A DNA stretch of 33,544 nucleotides from a virus, in IMG/VR virus record IMGVR_UViG_3300033049_000174, positions 1-33,544 of that record, one strand, 5' to 3'. Both the position numbers and the translations under genes were made by a program. The notes under the pieces were generated by a model that saw only the letters and a list, made by a program, of their open reading frames with translations, was not told the origin of the DNA and ran no database searches. Every line of letters starts with the position of its first letter. Position 1 is the first letter of the stretch. Positions 6,619 to 14,864 of this stretch are shown in pieces.

Positions 6619-7248
6619 TTATTTCTTTCCACCGCTGCTGCCACCGCCTGTAAAACCAGCATCTGCAGAACTAAAAGTATCTACTGCAAATTGACCAGCA
6701 TTTACAATGAATCCACCGACTTCACGCTGACCATAAAGAATCGGAACTGGATTGCCTTGTGCGATTGTGGTGACTGCTCCACCAAATCCAAAGTTAGACT
6801 TATTTCCATCTTGGTTTTGATCTTGTGCATCAACTTTTGGGGTAAGCATTTGTGCAATACCACCAATGGACATTCCAATACCTGCACCAATCAATGCTGC
6901 ACCATAAGGAGTTGTTGCTCCAAAAGTAAAATAGCCAGCAACTATCAACACAACCCCTAAAACTAAATTTAGAACCCCACTGTCACCGCCAGCCCCAATG
7001 ACTTTAGGCACGATCTTGATAACTTTGGCGCCAGTCTCAAAATCAATCTGATCCTCAGAGATATTTTCATCATCTTGGAAAACAGCAAAGGTAAGTCCCT
7101 GTTCATGAGCGGTTAGCATGAATTGTTCAAAGCCGGGCACTTGGACTGATAGCGCTTTTACAGCTTCACGGGTGCTTTCAACAGCAAGCTTAAATTCCTT
7201 ACCAAACTTCTTTCCGAGTACGCCATACAATTTGATCGTTTTAAGCAT
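6619..7248 (-). CDS. Tail assembly protein, lambda I-like
   Basis: Protein of 209 residues of the lambda tail I family, needed for tail-tip assembly. It has the usual plan: an N-terminal beta-grasp-like region (MLKTIKLYGVLGKKFG), then a hydrophobic, glycine-rich middle (GAGGDSGVLNLVLGVVLIVAGYFTFG and following), then LYGQREVGGFIVNAG near the end and a Gly/Ser-rich tail. The start overlaps the end of the K gene by eight bases. The order K, I, J matches lambda. The exact mechanism of gpI in tail-tip assembly is not known from sequence. Confidence 0.9.
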   Translation of the reverse strand: MLKTIKLYGVLGKKFGKEFKLAVESTREAVKALSVQVPGFEQFMLTAHEQGLTFAVFQDDENISEDQIDFETGAKVIKIVPKVIGAGGDSGVLNLVLGVVLIVAGYFTFGATTPYGAALIGAGIGMSIGGIAQMLTPKVDAQDQNQDGNKSNFGFGGAVTTIAQGNPVPILYGQREVGGFIVNAGQFAVDTFSSADAGFTGGGSSGGKK

Positions 7249-10103: not shown

Positions 10104-10748
10104 TTAATCACTTGATGATCTTAAAATAAAGCTAAAATCTGCAGTTGTTTTGATAAGTTGAGGCTTTCCATTGATAACTAAAGGCTTAAAACTTGCCTTT
10201 TTGAAAAATTCGCTTAAAACATATTCATCTAAAGCCGGGATTCCAGTGCTTTTAACAACCTTAACTTTGGTTAATTTACCTTTTCCATTAGCCTCTACAC
10301 TCAATGTTATAGTTCTATTACTTCCTTTTAAGTCAGTATTTTTAAAATTAAATTCTGGATACTCAGCATATTCCGGAACTCTTGATACACTTAATTCAAC
10401 TGGTTGAGTTAAGCGAATAGGAAAATTTTCGATTTTATCATTTGGATATTTTGCAAATATTTTTGCTTTTTTAAAGACCTCAATTATCTTGTTGTCTAGA
10501 TCCTGAAGTCCACTGCTTTTATTAATTTCAGCAACCTTAACAAAACCATTAACATCCGTCTCAATCCTCACCACAAGATATCTATCATAACCTTTCAACT
10601 CATCATTATTGATTCTAAATATCGGTTTTTTCACCCATTTTATAATCATATTTTCATCTACAGTTCTTGGCTCAACTCGAGCTTGAGAATCTGCTCCAAA
10701 ACAAAAACTGGAAACCAATAAGCAGAAAATTATAAATAAGCTTTTCAT
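10104..10748 (-). CDS. Secreted protein with two tandem TonB C-terminal-type domains
   Basis: Protein of 214 residues with a Sec signal peptide (MKSLFIIFCLLVSSFCFGA) and then two repeats of the TonB C-terminal fold. The first is near residues 55-105 (VVRIETDVNGFVKVAEINKS then SGLQDLDNKIIEVFKKA), the second near 140-205 (LSVEANGKGKLTKVKVVKS then TGIPALDEYVLSEFFKKASF). The family signature G-x-V-x-x-V-x-hydrophobic-x-x-S-S/T-G followed by L-D is visible in both. It lacks the cytoplasmic and membrane anchor of true TonB, so it should be a soluble periplasmic protein. An accessory (moron) role, such as interfering with TonB-dependent receptors, is inference. It is bounded by terminators on both sides and a dyad lies just upstream. 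Confidence 0.8.
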   Translation of the reverse strand: MKSLFIIFCLLVSSFCFGADSQARVEPRTVDENMIIKWVKKPIFRINNDELKGYDRYLVVRIETDVNGFVKVAEINKSSGLQDLDNKIIEVFKKAKIFAKYPNDKIENFPIRLTQPVELSVSRVPEYAEYPEFNFKNTDLKGSNRTITLSVEANGKGKLTKVKVVKSTGIPALDEYVLSEFFKKASFKPLVINGKPQLIKTTADFSFILRSSSD

Positions 10749-10791: not shown

Positions 10792-10817
10792 AAAAAGAAA
10801 CCTCCCGAGGGAGGTTT
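10792..10817 (-). terminator. Intrinsic terminator after BRO-N antirepressor
   Basis: Perfect 8-bp stem AAACCTCC/GGAGGTTT (10798-10805 with 10810-10817) and a short U-rich tract (CTTTTT) on the minus strand. It ends the immI-like operon before the TonB-domain gene. Confidence 0.85.
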
Positions 10818-10823
10818 GTTAAA

Positions 10824-11714
10824 TTACCACGCTGGCGCATTAAACCATTTAGGATTCACACCTATTCGATGACCTGATGATAAATTAATTGTCCTACAGA
10901 GTGAATCAACCAATGGCTGACCGCGTTTAGTCCGAAAATCAAAGTCAGCGCTAACTTTTCTAGCCAATGAATTAGATTTTAAGATGTAGCTGGCATAATT
11001 GTTGATAAACAATGGATCTATTAGCTCTAAAGCCTTCCAAACATTGTCCATAGCGCCATTCTGAGCAAGAATTGCCTCTGTCATTTGGCGTATCAACTCA
11101 TAATCATCTTTATCAAACAACGAGCCCTGTTTTTCCGTCTGACTATACAAAGCAATCAAGTAGTGAACATATTCCACAGCGACTGGTATTTCATCATAAG
11201 GAATCTCATCAATGTGTTTTACGTTGAAACGCTGATGAACGAGTTTGTATGCATCACTGTAATTTAAGTGTTTAGTCTTAGCCACAAGAAGATTTACAGC
11301 ATTGGTTAGGGGTTCGCGTTCTTCTTTGTGAGTTTTAGCAATTGGATTTCCAACTTCTTTATCAAGAATGTCGAGTACCCATTTGCGGAATTGCTTGGCA
11401 ATATCTGTTTTGGAAAACATTGCGATTAAGTGGCAGCCACGAAGTGAAAAGATGCGGATCGTTTTAGTTAAATTTTTGCTTTTCTTCGAGACACTCAAAT
11501 TGAGGGTCTCGACAGAATCATTGATACTTAAATTGAGGGTCGTTGTCATTGATGAATTAAACTCATCCTGATTACGCTCATAAACCTGAGTCACTGCATC
11601 CGATTTTGCATAACCAAGGGCTTTAGCCAACTCGGTTGCAGTTAGCCAAATTTGGCCATTCTGCTCCACTGGTGAAAAATTTACATCGTTAAAACTTAGT
11701 GTTAAACTTGTCAT
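10824..11714 (-). CDS. BRO-N family antirepressor (Ant-like)
   Basis: Protein of 296 residues with an N-terminal BRO-N domain (about residues 1-115: FNDVNFSPVEQNGQIWLTAT, ELAKALGYAKSDAVTQVYERN, then LRGCHLIAMFSKTDIAKQFRKWVLDIL). The C-terminal half is predicted helical and not strongly recognised, but its order is that of phage antirepressors. In P22, Ant binds and inactivates C2-type repressors, so the likely role here is inducing the lytic cycle or acting on a heterologous prophage repressor. The gene follows the Arc-like repressor gene with a 79-base gap holding its ribosome-binding site (AAGGA at 11724-11728) and a candidate plus-strand antisense RNA. Function is inferred from domain and locus layout. 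Confidence 0.82.
   Translation of the reverse strand: MTSLTLSFNDVNFSPVEQNGQIWLTATELAKALGYAKSDAVTQVYERNQDEFNSSMTTTLNLSINDSVETLNLSVSKKSKNLTKTIRIFSLRGCHLIAMFSKTDIAKQFRKWVLDILDKEVGNPIAKTHKEEREPLTNAVNLLVAKTKHLNYSDAYKLVHQRFNVKHIDEIPYDEIPVAVEYVHYLIALYSQTEKQGSLFDKDDYELIRQMTEAILAQNGAMDNVWKALELIDPLFINNYASYILKSNSLARKVSADFDFRTKRGQPLVDSLCRTINLSSGHRIGVNPKWFNAPAW
11680..11708 (+). promoter_or_regulatory. Candidate promoter for sar-like antisense RNA
   Basis: On the plus strand, -35 TTTACA (11680-11685), exactly 17 bases, then -10 TAAACT (11703-11708). It points against the antirepressor gene, inside its first codons, with an expected start at about 11714-11716. Confidence 0.55.
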
Positions 11715-11780
11715 GTGTTTACATCCTTAAGTGATGGCAACTAAACCTTGTATTGATTGGTAGTCTGGCAAGGTTTTTTT
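11715..11780 (+). ncRNA. Candidate sar-like antisense RNA over the antirepressor ribosome-binding site
   Basis: A plus-strand transcript from the promoter at 11680-11708 would start at the antirepressor start codon, cover its whole leader including AAGGA, and end at a strong intrinsic terminator. The terminator is an 8-bp stem (11743-11750 with 11769-11776) followed by seven T. Predicted length is about 65 nt, close to that of P22 sar RNA (about 69 nt as I recall), which lies in the same arc-ant gap and represses ant translation. The terminator has no plus-strand gene to serve, which argues for a dedicated antisense RNA. Expression has not been shown. Confidence 0.6.
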
Positions 11781-11793
11781 GTGCCTATTGATT

Positions 11794-11973
11794 TCATGCT
11801 TTCGCACTCTCTATTTCATTTTTCATTTGCTTAACCGCATGGTTAATTAAATAATTCACTGGTCTTTCATACTCCTGACCAAGCTCTTTAAGCCAATCCA
11901 TTAATTCAGGTTCAATTCGAAGATTGTACTGAATCTTGGTTCGCTCACCTTTTGGTTTTGTGGGTAGTTCCAT
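11794..11973 (-). CDS. Arc-like ribbon-helix-helix repressor (small gene)
   Basis: A 59-residue protein starting MELPTKPKGERTKIQYNLRI. Residues 13-19 (KIQYNLR) form the expected DNA-reading beta strand with Q15, N17 and R19, matching the Q-N-R pattern of Arc. Two helices follow, EPELMDWLKELGQEY and RPVNYLINHAVKQM. Ribosome-binding sequence AGGAG lies six bases before the ATG. The gene is read from a consensus-like promoter (12028-12057) and is followed by the antirepressor gene, so it sits where arc sits in the P22 immI locus (arc-ant). Predicted role is repression of the shared promoter and hence of the antirepressor. Confidence 0.85.
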   Translation of the reverse strand: MELPTKPKGERTKIQYNLRIEPELMDWLKELGQEYERPVNYLINHAVKQMKNEIESAKA

Positions 11974-12010
11974 ATCAAACTCCTATGATGGGTGATCTTA
12001 ACAATAATAG

Positions 12011-12080
12011 CCACTGGCTATATCTGGATAATAATACCCATTGGCTAGGATTGTCAATATGCACTGGCTACTATTATTAT
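12011..12080. promoter_or_regulatory. Divergent promoters with operator repeats (immI-like control region)
   Basis: Minus-strand promoter: TTGACA (12057-12052) then 18 bases then TATTAT (12033-12028). Plus-strand promoter: TTGTCA (12051-12056) then 18 bases then TATTAT (12075-12080). The two -35 boxes overlap. Three copies of CAYTGGCTA lie at 12012-12020, 12038-12046 and 12062-12070: one beyond the minus start, one in each spacer. The first is part of the palindrome TAGCC-ACT-GGCTA. These are the probable operators of the two ribbon-helix-helix proteins. Confidence 0.75.
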
Positions 12081-12107
12081 GTTTTTTATTTGCGGTATAT
12101 GGTCATA

Positions 12108-12365
12108 ATGAGTAGCAAACACTTAAATGCACAATACAATTTGCGCTGGCCCGATGAATTAAAAGAAAAAATAGCTCAATCAGCTAAAAAACATAACCGT
12201 TCAATGAATGCTGACATTGTTGCTCGGCTGGAGCAGTCTTTAGCTAATGAGGAACTGCCTACAATTACTCAAGCTGACAAAGACTATTTGACTAAAATCC
12301 AATCAATCGAAGAAAAGCTAGATATGATTATTAACAATACAGATGTATTAAAAAAAGCACCTTAG
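12108..12365 (+). CDS. Mnt-like ribbon-helix-helix repressor
   Basis: The only plus-strand gene in the window, 85 residues. The N-terminal part matches the Arc/Mnt fold: beta strand Q9-Y-N11-L-R13 (same residue numbers as the DNA-contacting Q9, N11 and R13 of Arc), then RWPDELKEKIAQSAKKHNRS and MNADIVARLEQSL. A C-terminal extension (DYLTKIQSIEEKLDMIINNT) looks like a coiled coil, as in Mnt, which uses it to form tetramers. The start at 12108 (MSSKHLN) was chosen because the Arc-family alignment begins there. Another ATG is in frame at 12099, and upstream ATG codons lie across the promoter. It is divergent from the Arc-like gene and shares its control region. Confidence 0.88.
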   Translation: MSSKHLNAQYNLRWPDELKEKIAQSAKKHNRSMNADIVARLEQSLANEELPTITQADKDYLTKIQSIEEKLDMIINNTDVLKKAP

Positions 12366-12374
12366 GGTGCTTTT
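12353..12374. terminator. Bidirectional terminator between convergent genes
   Basis: Stem AAAAGCACC/GGTGCTTTT (12353-12361 with 12366-12374) between the plus-strand Mnt-like gene (stop 12363-12365) and the convergent lipoprotein gene (stop at 12384). T-tracts are present on both strands. Confidence 0.85.
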
Positions 12375-12383
12375 ATTTAGACT

Positions 12384-12728
12384 TTAATTAGCATTTGTTC
12401 TATTAATACAAGCATGGTACATTTTATTTCTAAAATCGGTAACCGCTTTCTCTTGATTCTCTTCAACACTATAGCGTGGTTCAGCATATGCATCGTTTAC
12501 AATTGCTTGAACCAAACCTTTCATTTGTTCATCTTCAATATTATTAGCTATCGACATACTATCAACCATAGCCATGCCTGTTTGTCTATTCACCATAATT
12601 GATTTAGAAAGATCATCAATGACCTTGCAAAAATCTGAATTGCTAACTATATCTTTGTGCTCTTCTTTTTTTGTACATGCTGTTAAAAATAGAACAGAAA
12701 TAGTTAACGTGAAAAATATCATTTTCAT
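12384..12728 (-). CDS. Secreted lipoprotein, paralog of the 13998-14333 product
   Basis: A 114-residue lipoprotein with signal MKMIFFTLTISVLFLTAC (lipobox LTAC). The mature part aligns over its length with the protein at 13998-14333: both share FC near the N-terminus of the domain, M-x-x-RQ-x-G, M-x-I-x-x-x-I, V-x-x-AY-x-EP-x-Y, ENQE, and AC near the end. The two conserved cysteines could form a disulfide in the periplasm. It starts two bases after the 13278-12730 gene ends, as the last gene of a three-gene cassette. Function is unknown. A lysogenic-conversion or exclusion role is only a guess from its cassette. Confidence 0.8.
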   Translation of the reverse strand: MKMIFFTLTISVLFLTACTKKEEHKDIVSNSDFCKVIDDLSKSIMVNRQTGMAMVDSMSIANNIEDEQMKGLVQAIVNDAYAEPRYSVEENQEKAVTDFRNKMYHACINRTNAN

Positions 12729-12729
12729 A

Positions 12730-13278
12730 CTAATTACTCATATCTTTAATAGCATCATCCAAGTACCAATCTTTTGCAAATGTATTCAAATCTTCCATCT
12801 GTTTATTCATAACACCAAACCAGCCGCCATCCCACACCCCATATGCGTGCTCACCATTTAACAGATAAACATTTTCAGGCATAGTTCGCAATGTATAAAC
12901 AGGATTCTGCAACCCATATTCCTTGCCAAGGTTTTGGAAAAAATCACCATTAAAATAGAACTTATCTTTACCCTTGTAACCAAGATATACTTTATTAAAC
13001 TGCTTATCTTTGATTTTTTCAGCAAACTGCAACATTACTCGATTGACGTCAAGAGAACTATTTTCTCCAGTCATACTGCGAAAATCATATTTAAGTTCAG
13101 TTGGATTTAAAAACCATTTGTAATGAACCCAAACCCTAACACCTTTATTTCTAGGATCTTCTTTTAGTACAGAACTCATATGGCGTTGAAGATTAATATA
13201 ATTAAATGCCGCAACAATACATACTATTACAAGAATACTTAAAATAATTTTAACAATGTTTTTCATAATGTTATTCAC
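12730..13278 (-). CDS. Membrane-anchored periplasmic protein of unknown function
   Basis: 182 residues with one N-terminal membrane segment (about residues 7-25: NIVKIILSILVIVCIVAAF) and a periplasmic domain rich in aromatics (VWVHYKWFLNPTELKYDF, KVYLGYKGKDKFYFNGDFF, YGVWDGGWFGVM). I do not recognise the family. The GTG at 13278 has GGGG upstream; an ATG at 13266 is the alternative start and would remove four residues. The gene overlaps the end of the preceding lipoprotein gene and is followed after one base by the next lipoprotein gene, so the three are likely translated together. Confidence 0.75.
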   Translation of the reverse strand: MNNIMKNIVKIILSILVIVCIVAAFNYINLQRHMSSVLKEDPRNKGVRVWVHYKWFLNPTELKYDFRSMTGENSSLDVNRVMLQFAEKIKDKQFNKVYLGYKGKDKFYFNGDFFQNLGKEYGLQNPVYTLRTMPENVYLLNGEHAYGVWDGGWFGVMNKQMEDLNTFAKDWYLDDAIKDMSN

Positions 13279-13900
13279 CCTTACCCCAATTTATCCCTGA
13301 AACAGTGAAGCTGAATTGTTTCTTTCCTTCTTGATAAAAAGGCAACTCAATGATTAATTTTTTAGATTTTTTTAGTGACTTGATAAAGGTATCAACATCA
13401 TAATCATTTGATATAAACAACACATCACCAGAATAATCTGTTGTGGCACTAAGCTCAATATTTTGAATATGACCATCATCAAACTTTACAGATGCAAAAC
13501 AGCTCTCAGAAATCGTATCACATGAATATTGCCCATCATTAATTGTGAACATTATTTCTGTTGGTTCTGTCGCCCTCTTTCTTAAAGTTATATCAAGATA
13601 CGATCCTCCATTATAGGGGAAATCAAATTGCACTCGATTGTCTGAGGAAATGGAGGCAAATTTAGTTATTATGCCCCTCATATCATCATTTTTTTGATTG
13701 TAATTCCAGTTAGAGGTTGGTTCAGGCGTGATAATCTCTGGCTTAATTTCAGGACTAGGTTTAGCTATGCTTACAACATCACTTTGACTACTCTCCTTTA
13801 TTTCTGCATTATTATTAATCTCAATGGCTTTATTTTTATCTGAACAACCATTTAATAAGACACAAAAACCCATCAATGAAGCTAAAATCAATTTATTCAT
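13271..13900 (-). CDS. Lipoprotein with C-terminal beta-rich domain
   Basis: 209-residue lipoprotein: signal MNKLILASLMGFCVLLNGC with lipobox LNGC, then a Pro/Ser/Glu-rich linker (about residues 30-65) and a beta-rich domain with two cysteines close together (YSCDTISESCF) and the C-terminal pattern LIIELPFYQEGKKQFSFTVSG. That tail pattern occurs in proteins predicted to be periplasmic beta-sandwiches, which is recall and not checked. First gene of a three-gene cassette, with an AT-rich gap upstream (13901-13979). No function can be assigned. Confidence 0.78.
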   Translation of the reverse strand: MNKLILASLMGFCVLLNGCSDKNKAIEINNNAEIKESSQSDVVSIAKPSPEIKPEIITPEPTSNWNYNQKNDDMRGIITKFASISSDNRVQFDFPYNGGSYLDITLRKRATEPTEIMFTINDGQYSCDTISESCFASVKFDDGHIQNIELSATTDYSGDVLFISNDYDVDTFIKSLKKSKKLIIELPFYQEGKKQFSFTVSGINWGKGE

Positions 13901-14412: not shown

Positions 14413-14820
14413 TTATTTCAAGGACCTTTCACAATATGGCGATGCATTTTTTAACAATGGATCAGGAGTAAAAGCAAAGGTTGCACCCATATAATAATCG
14501 GCTTTCAGTGCTAACTTCTCGCCTGATTTGGATATAATCTTTAATTTAAGATTGTTTTGATTATAAACAACATTATCTACAACCTTTATCTTGTCTAGTA
14601 TGTCCTTACCATTGTAGCTTTGACACATAAGACCCGTACCATCATCATTAAATTTAATAGTCACCAGCCAAGGTCCCCCACTACCTGACCAGTATCCTGA
14701 TAAGTCCGTGGGCTTAGGGGTTATTGAGCTGAATTGACCACTTAATAAATCGTTATTCATAGCACAGCCACTCAGAGTAAAGCCAAAGCACAAAGCGCCA
14801 ATCGGTAGTAATTTTTTCAT
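14413..14820 (-). CDS. Lipoprotein of unknown function downstream of tape measure
   Basis: About 135 residues. The signal MKKLLPIGALCFGFTLSGC has lipobox LSGC. The mature part (DLSGYWSGSGGPWLVTIKFN, then DDGTGLMCQSYNG) has a lipocalin-like opening (G-x-W-x-G) and a beta-rich pattern, with cysteines in LMCQSY and SPYCERS. The start at 14820 begins the signal peptide; the frame extends to 14856 without support. It is first in the accessory block inserted between the tape measure and the M gene and is flanked by terminators, which is moron-like. Lipoproteins in this position are sometimes superinfection-exclusion factors, but nothing here proves that. Confidence 0.75.
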   Translation of the reverse strand: MKKLLPIGALCFGFTLSGCAMNNDLLSGQFSSITPKPTDLSGYWSGSGGPWLVTIKFNDDGTGLMCQSYNGKDILDKIKVVDNVVYNQNNLKLKIISKSGEKLALKADYYMGATFAFTPDPLLKNASPYCERSLK

Positions 14821-14864
14821 ATAAATCCCATAGTTCGTTTTACAGAAAAATAGCACTTGAAAGA

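Follow-up and report, generated by a model that had tools for sequence, protein, structure and literature searches.

The sar RNA of phage P22 is almost the sole textbook case of its sort. It pairs with the ant mRNA and blocks antirepressor translation (reviewed in PMC12197685 and PMC7968456). The C4 RNA has three stems and is cut by RNase P out of a longer precursor; C4-like RNAs also make up the main sRNA family published for Acinetobacter in connection with antirepressor control (PMC5320573). In antisense systems, the U-turn formed by a YUNR motif accelerates loop-loop pairing, whichever partner carries it (PMC4485353). The main texts of open-licence papers yielded no published description of an Acinetobacter sar-like element and no usable RNA data bearing on it, and antirepressors go unmentioned in the main text of the A. 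baumannii AB5075 interactome paper. What the sequences described here appear to add to a known kind of regulation, sar-type antisense control of an antirepressor, is a genus-wide family whose putative promoter holds a constant place within the first codons of antirepressors from at least five families.

The window, i.e., the whole stretch of DNA that was analysed, corresponds to a 33,544-base IMG/VR record. Its immI-like region contains the following features:

10824-11714, minus strand: antirepressor with a Bro-N domain, the predicted target (Pfam Bro-N 1.1e-13; phrog_2127 anti-repressor 1.5e-88).
11680-11685, plus strand: -35 element TTTACA of the predicted antisense promoter (read directly).
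11700-11708, plus strand: extended -10 TGTTAAACT, over antirepressor codons 3-5 (read directly; position conserved in relatives).
11715-11780, plus strand: predicted sar-like antisense RNA of about 66 nt (from promoter and terminator geometry; start by analogy with P22 sar).
11724-11728, plus strand: complement of the antirepressor Shine-Dalgarno sequence AAGGA (read directly).
11743-11776, plus strand: hairpin AAACCTTG - 18-nt loop - CAAGGTTT (read directly, fold, conservation in relatives).
11774-11780, plus strand: seven T, the intrinsic terminator tail on the antisense strand (read directly; T-run invariant in relatives).
11794-11973, minus strand: Arc-like repressor of the ribbon-helix-helix type, encoded at the head of the antirepressor operon (phrog_3180 Arc-like repressor 1.1e-11).
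12028-12057, minus strand: likely arc-antirepressor operon promoter TTGACA-18-TATTAT (among the best-scoring promoter sites of the region).
12051-12080, plus strand: divergent promoter TTGTCA-18-TATTAT (overlapping the operon promoter).
12108-12365, plus strand: divergent Arc-domain repressor, in the position that Mnt has in P22 (Pfam Arc 1e-14).

Two strong, overlapping, divergent promoters thus lie between the Arc-like gene and the divergent Arc-domain gene. They are surrounded by TAGCCA/TGGCTA repeats (12007-12075), which are probably operators for both ribbon-helix-helix repressors. Within the tail genes, the module is adjoined by three genes for small predicted lipoproteins on the minus strand (12384-12728, 13271-13900, and 14413-14856, with lipobox-like LTAC, LNGC, and LSGC, respectively), likely cargo ('moron') genes. 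Directly downstream of the antirepressor, the minus strand encodes a secreted-looking protein with TonB C-terminal domains (10104-10748; Pfam TonB_C 2.4e-12), separated from it by a strong minus-strand terminator at 10798-10817.

The plus-strand promoter TTTACA-17-TAAACT reported in the first-pass annotation is indeed present, with its -10 hexamer at 11703-11708 and a spacer of 17 nt, and it further carries an extended -10 TG (11700-11701) that the annotation did not mention. The complement of the antirepressor ATG (11712-11714) follows three bases after the -10, giving the order TGTTAAACT-TGT-CAT. As a bare consensus match (9/12), such a site is at chance level (19 in 4 kb vs 17.8 expected). 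Single matches of this kind are common in this AT-rich DNA, as would be expected if the hairpin were a plain terminator that keeps spurious antisense transcription out of arc, and the hexamer a by-product of a conserved N-terminus.

The hairpin pairs AAACCTTG (11743-11750) with CAAGGTTT (11769-11776), and three of the seven T fall within the stem. The annotation was right about the 8-bp stem and the T-run, but not about the 65 or so bases placed ahead of them: the stem begins 34 nt past the -10, and about 66 nt is the length of the whole transcript. The 45-nt hairpin folds at -12.8 kcal/mol, a moderately stable structure (z = -2.8; equalled by 2/200 shuffles). Its 18-nt loop is large for an intrinsic terminator, which counts against a sar-like reading, and is the reason why a terminator scan with a loop limit of 8 does not return it. 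The predicted RNA would otherwise hold at most a weak 5' hairpin.

The start of this RNA is placed by analogy: the Rfam sar model matches the P22 record at 532-599 (68 positions), its first base adjoining the ant ATG, which puts the start at 11715 in the window. The course proposed for the transcript, from the antirepressor ATG, over AAGGA, to an end before the Arc-like stop, agrees with the coordinates of the predicted RNA (11712-11714 for the ATG complement, 11724-11728 for that of AAGGA, and 13 nt from the T-run end to the stop at 11794-11796). The claim that no plus-strand gene precedes the terminator also holds. Among ORFs of at least 120 aa before 11680, all lie on the minus strand except two (122 and 126 aa), both inside a 1586-aa minus-strand gene, and none is a credible upstream gene needing the terminator at 11743-11780. 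In the predicted antirepressor leader mRNA, the fold leaves the Shine-Dalgarno sequence unpaired, so translation must be restrained by something else. Neither the promoter score alone nor the fold z-score alone is sufficient evidence, and on this window alone the antisense-RNA claim is only suggestive. The unit is judged to be above chance because it is conserved in about 70 distinct relatives.

These relatives were collected by protein searches and a DNA-pattern search (118 stretches), yielding 72 distinct hairpin-bearing elements, whose named hosts are Acinetobacter; 65 distinct ones were aligned. About 70 distinct Acinetobacter prophage relatives keep both the hairpin and the antisense-strand T-run despite differing stem sequences, the T-run being invariant in all 65 aligned relatives. 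Loops measure 14-20 nt, and the stems are of the types AAGCCC/GGGCTT, AAACCTTG/CAAGGTTT as in the window, and AAAGCAGA/TCTGCTTT (L245, outside the alignment). In the alignment, 99.3% of stem cells are paired. Three stem pairs vary on both sides (GC to AU, CG to UA), totalling 19 cells vs 3.0 in shuffles (reached by 0/500), which represent few independent events, since the second stem is carried by few lineages.

A covariance model built from the relatives, R1, gives its best match in the window at 11709-11785 (40.4 bits), the window being part of the training set. At E <= 0.001, R1 places the element in 54 of the 176 genomes of the genus. Nearly all of the strong matches inspected have the hairpin, and the weak ones are a mix of real and chance matches. 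A wider family search returned three matches in genomes outside the genus list, among which L266 looks like a real element, and L265 and L267 were discarded as family elements, looking like ordinary terminators. Phages TCUAN1, Acba_3, and Ab11510-phi are among the carriers of the cassette. In one 7.2-kb viral contig (L145), the arc-end/hairpin pattern occurs twice, at 139-167 and 6684-6712, with differing loops. An Acinetobacter sichuanensis contig with the cassette (L045) shows a CRISPR direct-repeat match at 2971-2998 (RF01317, 37.4 bits).

The predicted promoter is kept within the coding start of the antirepressors. Each of the 52 distinct antirepressor 5' ends has an in-frame TANNNT hexamer that spans codons 3-4 or is displaced from there by whole codons; two divergent relatives (L233 and L235) have CATACT where others have TANNNT. 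The extended -10 TG (-15/-14) occurs in 30 of 46 distinct promoters. A -35 of the form TTTACA/TTTACT at a spacer of 17 is found in Bro-N relatives of the MxSLxLSFN type, and this element is weaker in several other antirepressor classes, P22_AR_N above all. The residues under the hexamer vary (SL, NL, NI, TI, SI, II, and ML). Codon use was examined with the site defined by residue and fixed place (Leu/Ile at codon 4 or 6), which avoids circularity. The Leu/Ile codon at the -10 is NTA in 62/62 cases, and the preceding codon begins with A in 62/62. Ile is encoded by ATA in 12/12 cases there and in 11/33 at the other positions of these 5' ends (Fisher p = 7e-5), and for Leu the comparison with the other Leu codons of these 5' ends gives p = 1e-3, both p-values being only indicative because the relatives are related sequences. 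In the gene bodies of these antirepressors, ATA accounts for only 16% of Ile codons.

KilA-N genes offer an internal contrast: the hexamer stands at codons 3-4 or 5-6 in 8/8 genes with the hairpin and in 0/9 clear genes without it, though common descent may account for part of this difference because the two groups are different subfamilies. Shared ancestry of Bro-N and KilA-N 5' ends through recombination would help the plain-terminator explanation. This explanation does not account for a hexamer that recurs over seven different residue pairs with NTA codons, nor for its matching position in P22, a phage whose sar RNA is proven (see the reviews PMC12197685 and PMC7968456), and we consider it improbable.

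The element precedes antirepressors of at least five families (Bro-N, KilA-N, ORF6N, P22_AR_N, and AntA), as well as two small ORFs. In some modules (L067 1439-1515, L261 804-1190, and L039 2758-3048), the first gene under the element is such a small unknown ORF (96-130 aa) and no recognised antirepressor, which suggests that the RNA may control whichever gene heads the operon. A single loop can be found with several of these genes: TGAATCTTGGCGGATGC accompanies Bro-N, ORF6N, and P22_AR_N antirepressors and a small ORF. This pattern suggests that the hairpin loops constitute an exchangeable specificity.

The strand on which the loop sequence is read also changes. A CUUGGCGG-like sequence is on the sense strand in most loops; CUUGGCGG itself lies on the sense strand with AAGCCC stems, whereas L043, L242, and L245 have it on the antisense strand. 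A YUNR motif is found in all of the 48 distinct loops collected (on the sense strand in 42, otherwise on the antisense strand in 6), a count that is weak taken alone because YUNR is common by chance in a 16-nt loop. In the window, the loop of the antisense RNA has UUGG, a YUNR motif. More telling than the count is that the CUUGGCGG loop keeps its sequence while its strand changes, as loop-loop pairing would allow, and together, the reassortment of loops among antirepressors and the occurrence of both orientations suggest such pairing. In L095, positions 2781-2886 of the plus strand match the Rfam repBA pseudoknot PK-repBA at 25.2 bits, far under the gathering score of 45; this model stems from plasmid replication control, and the match is probably due to chance, perhaps arising from the UUGGCG loop.

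The predominance of sense-strand CUUGGCGG-like loops would also fit a hairpin that acts in the sense mRNA only, as a structure of the arc-antirepressor leader setting translation or decay, with no antisense transcript. The outer helix, GRC...GYC, suits the sense strand better as well (G-U wobble vs antisense A-C). Nevertheless, a sense-only role leaves unexplained the invariant T-run on the antisense side, the two loop orientations, and the NTA codon constraint with its fixed-place extended -10. This makes it unlikely, if slightly less so than the plain terminator.

From the sequence elements, their conservation and covariation, the codon constraint, and the synteny, we infer that the extended -10 promoter in the antirepressor start very probably yields an antisense RNA of about 66 nt, which would block antirepressor translation as P22 sar does. 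Driven from within the first antirepressor codons and ending at the intrinsic terminator in the arc-antirepressor gap, this RNA would be complementary throughout to the antirepressor leader and, within it, to the Shine-Dalgarno sequence. Pairing would probably begin at the hairpin loop (kissing) and then extend to a full duplex, which would prevent translation. In a lysogen, the antisense RNA would sequester operon mRNA arising from leaky expression; upon infection or derepression, the output of the strong operon promoter would outrun it. The sar-like reading of the first-pass annotation thereby receives strong support from the comparison with relatives and P22 sequences.

A broader interpretation, which we advance as tentative, is that of a genus-wide, exchangeable antisense immunity cassette, in which the promoter would be fixed in the first codons of any antirepressor entering the module, the loop would serve as a swappable and invertible specificity tag, and prophages sharing a loop could silence one another in trans. 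A promoter that, as predicted, persists within the first codons of genes for unrelated proteins would allow antirepressors to be swapped without losing RNA control. If this interpretation is correct, prophages with the same loop could silence each other's antirepressor, which would constitute RNA-based immunity groups in Acinetobacter. On the sar-like reading itself, P22 sar would turn from a near-singular case into a member of a large family that governs the lysis switch of prophages across Acinetobacter, those of A. baumannii included. Whether the type of RNA loop determines the immunity group can also be tested directly.

Among known systems, the C4 RNAs of P1/P7 and the A. baumannii Group 1 sRNAs share with the window a small phage RNA that blocks antirepressor translation (predicted in the window), and C4-like RNAs are abundant in A. 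baumannii (PMC5320573), so that a C4-type identity has to be considered. It can, however, be regarded as extremely improbable: the window element is a cis-antisense unit, whereas C4 is an RNase P product with three stems (PMC5320573), has two target loops with only partial target complementarity, and is encoded elsewhere than opposite its target. As the Rfam C4 covariance model has no match listed in window 11400-12400 or in five relatives, a C4 identity was rejected. Plasmid copy-number antisense RNAs with YUNR (U-turn) loops resemble the Acinetobacter element in having hairpin loops that are complementary, CUUGGCGG frequently occurring on one of the two strands; they differ in that the latter would control a phage antirepressor and not replication, and in that its U-turn is a candidate.

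The likeness to P22 immI extends to the whole module: a divergent Arc-domain gene of similar size, overlapping divergent promoters, an arc-like gene followed by an antirepressor, and a location within the late (tail gene) region. The differences concern the proteins. As the annotation had noted, the antirepressor family is unlike that of P22 (Bro-N in the window, P22_AR_N for P22 Ant), and P22 Mnt has an Arc domain and PF11423, the Mnt C-terminal model, whereas the window's divergent protein matches the Arc domain only, with no PF11423 match. Some relatives show no arc gene; in the Acinetobacter phages A1626.2 and LPAB65, where none is annotated, the hairpin and TAAACT still stand before ant.

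For the RNA itself, homology searches and anatomy give different answers. RF00262, the Rfam sar family, scores 97.8 bits on P22 itself, but has no match in window 11400-12400 up to E 10, nor in five relatives up to E 0.5, and filing the window RNA as Rfam sar was, therefore, rejected. Conversely, R1 reaches only 8.4 bits on P22 sar (E 0.22, not significant). Because neither model gives significant sequence homology, an independent origin of the sar-like control, without descent from P22 sar, keeps some probability. Shared descent of the module with P22 immI, with its control logic kept, nonetheless seems the better-favoured account, because both have the layout and promoter place in common and, in those Acinetobacter modules where the same element accompanies a P22_AR_N antirepressor, the antirepressor family as well. 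The predicted RNA can be called sar-like by its anatomy, membership in RF00262 not being established.

This anatomy is close to that of P22. Both RNAs, that of the window as predicted, are encoded antisense to the antirepressor leader within the arc-ant gap, cover the ribosome-binding site, and end ahead of the arc stop. On the same strand, P22 reads TGC-TATACT-ATT-CAT (TGCTATACT-ATT-CAT), with its extended -10 over ant codons 3-4 and three bases from the ATG complement, as in the window. The expectation of a length about that of P22 sar was accurate, with 66 nt predicted in the window vs 68/69 nt. The two differ in that P22 sar has two strong, compact stem-loops, whereas the window RNA would have one large-loop hairpin and a clean T-run, and in that the Acinetobacter element accompanies at least five antirepressor families, its loops being exchanged and inverted among them.
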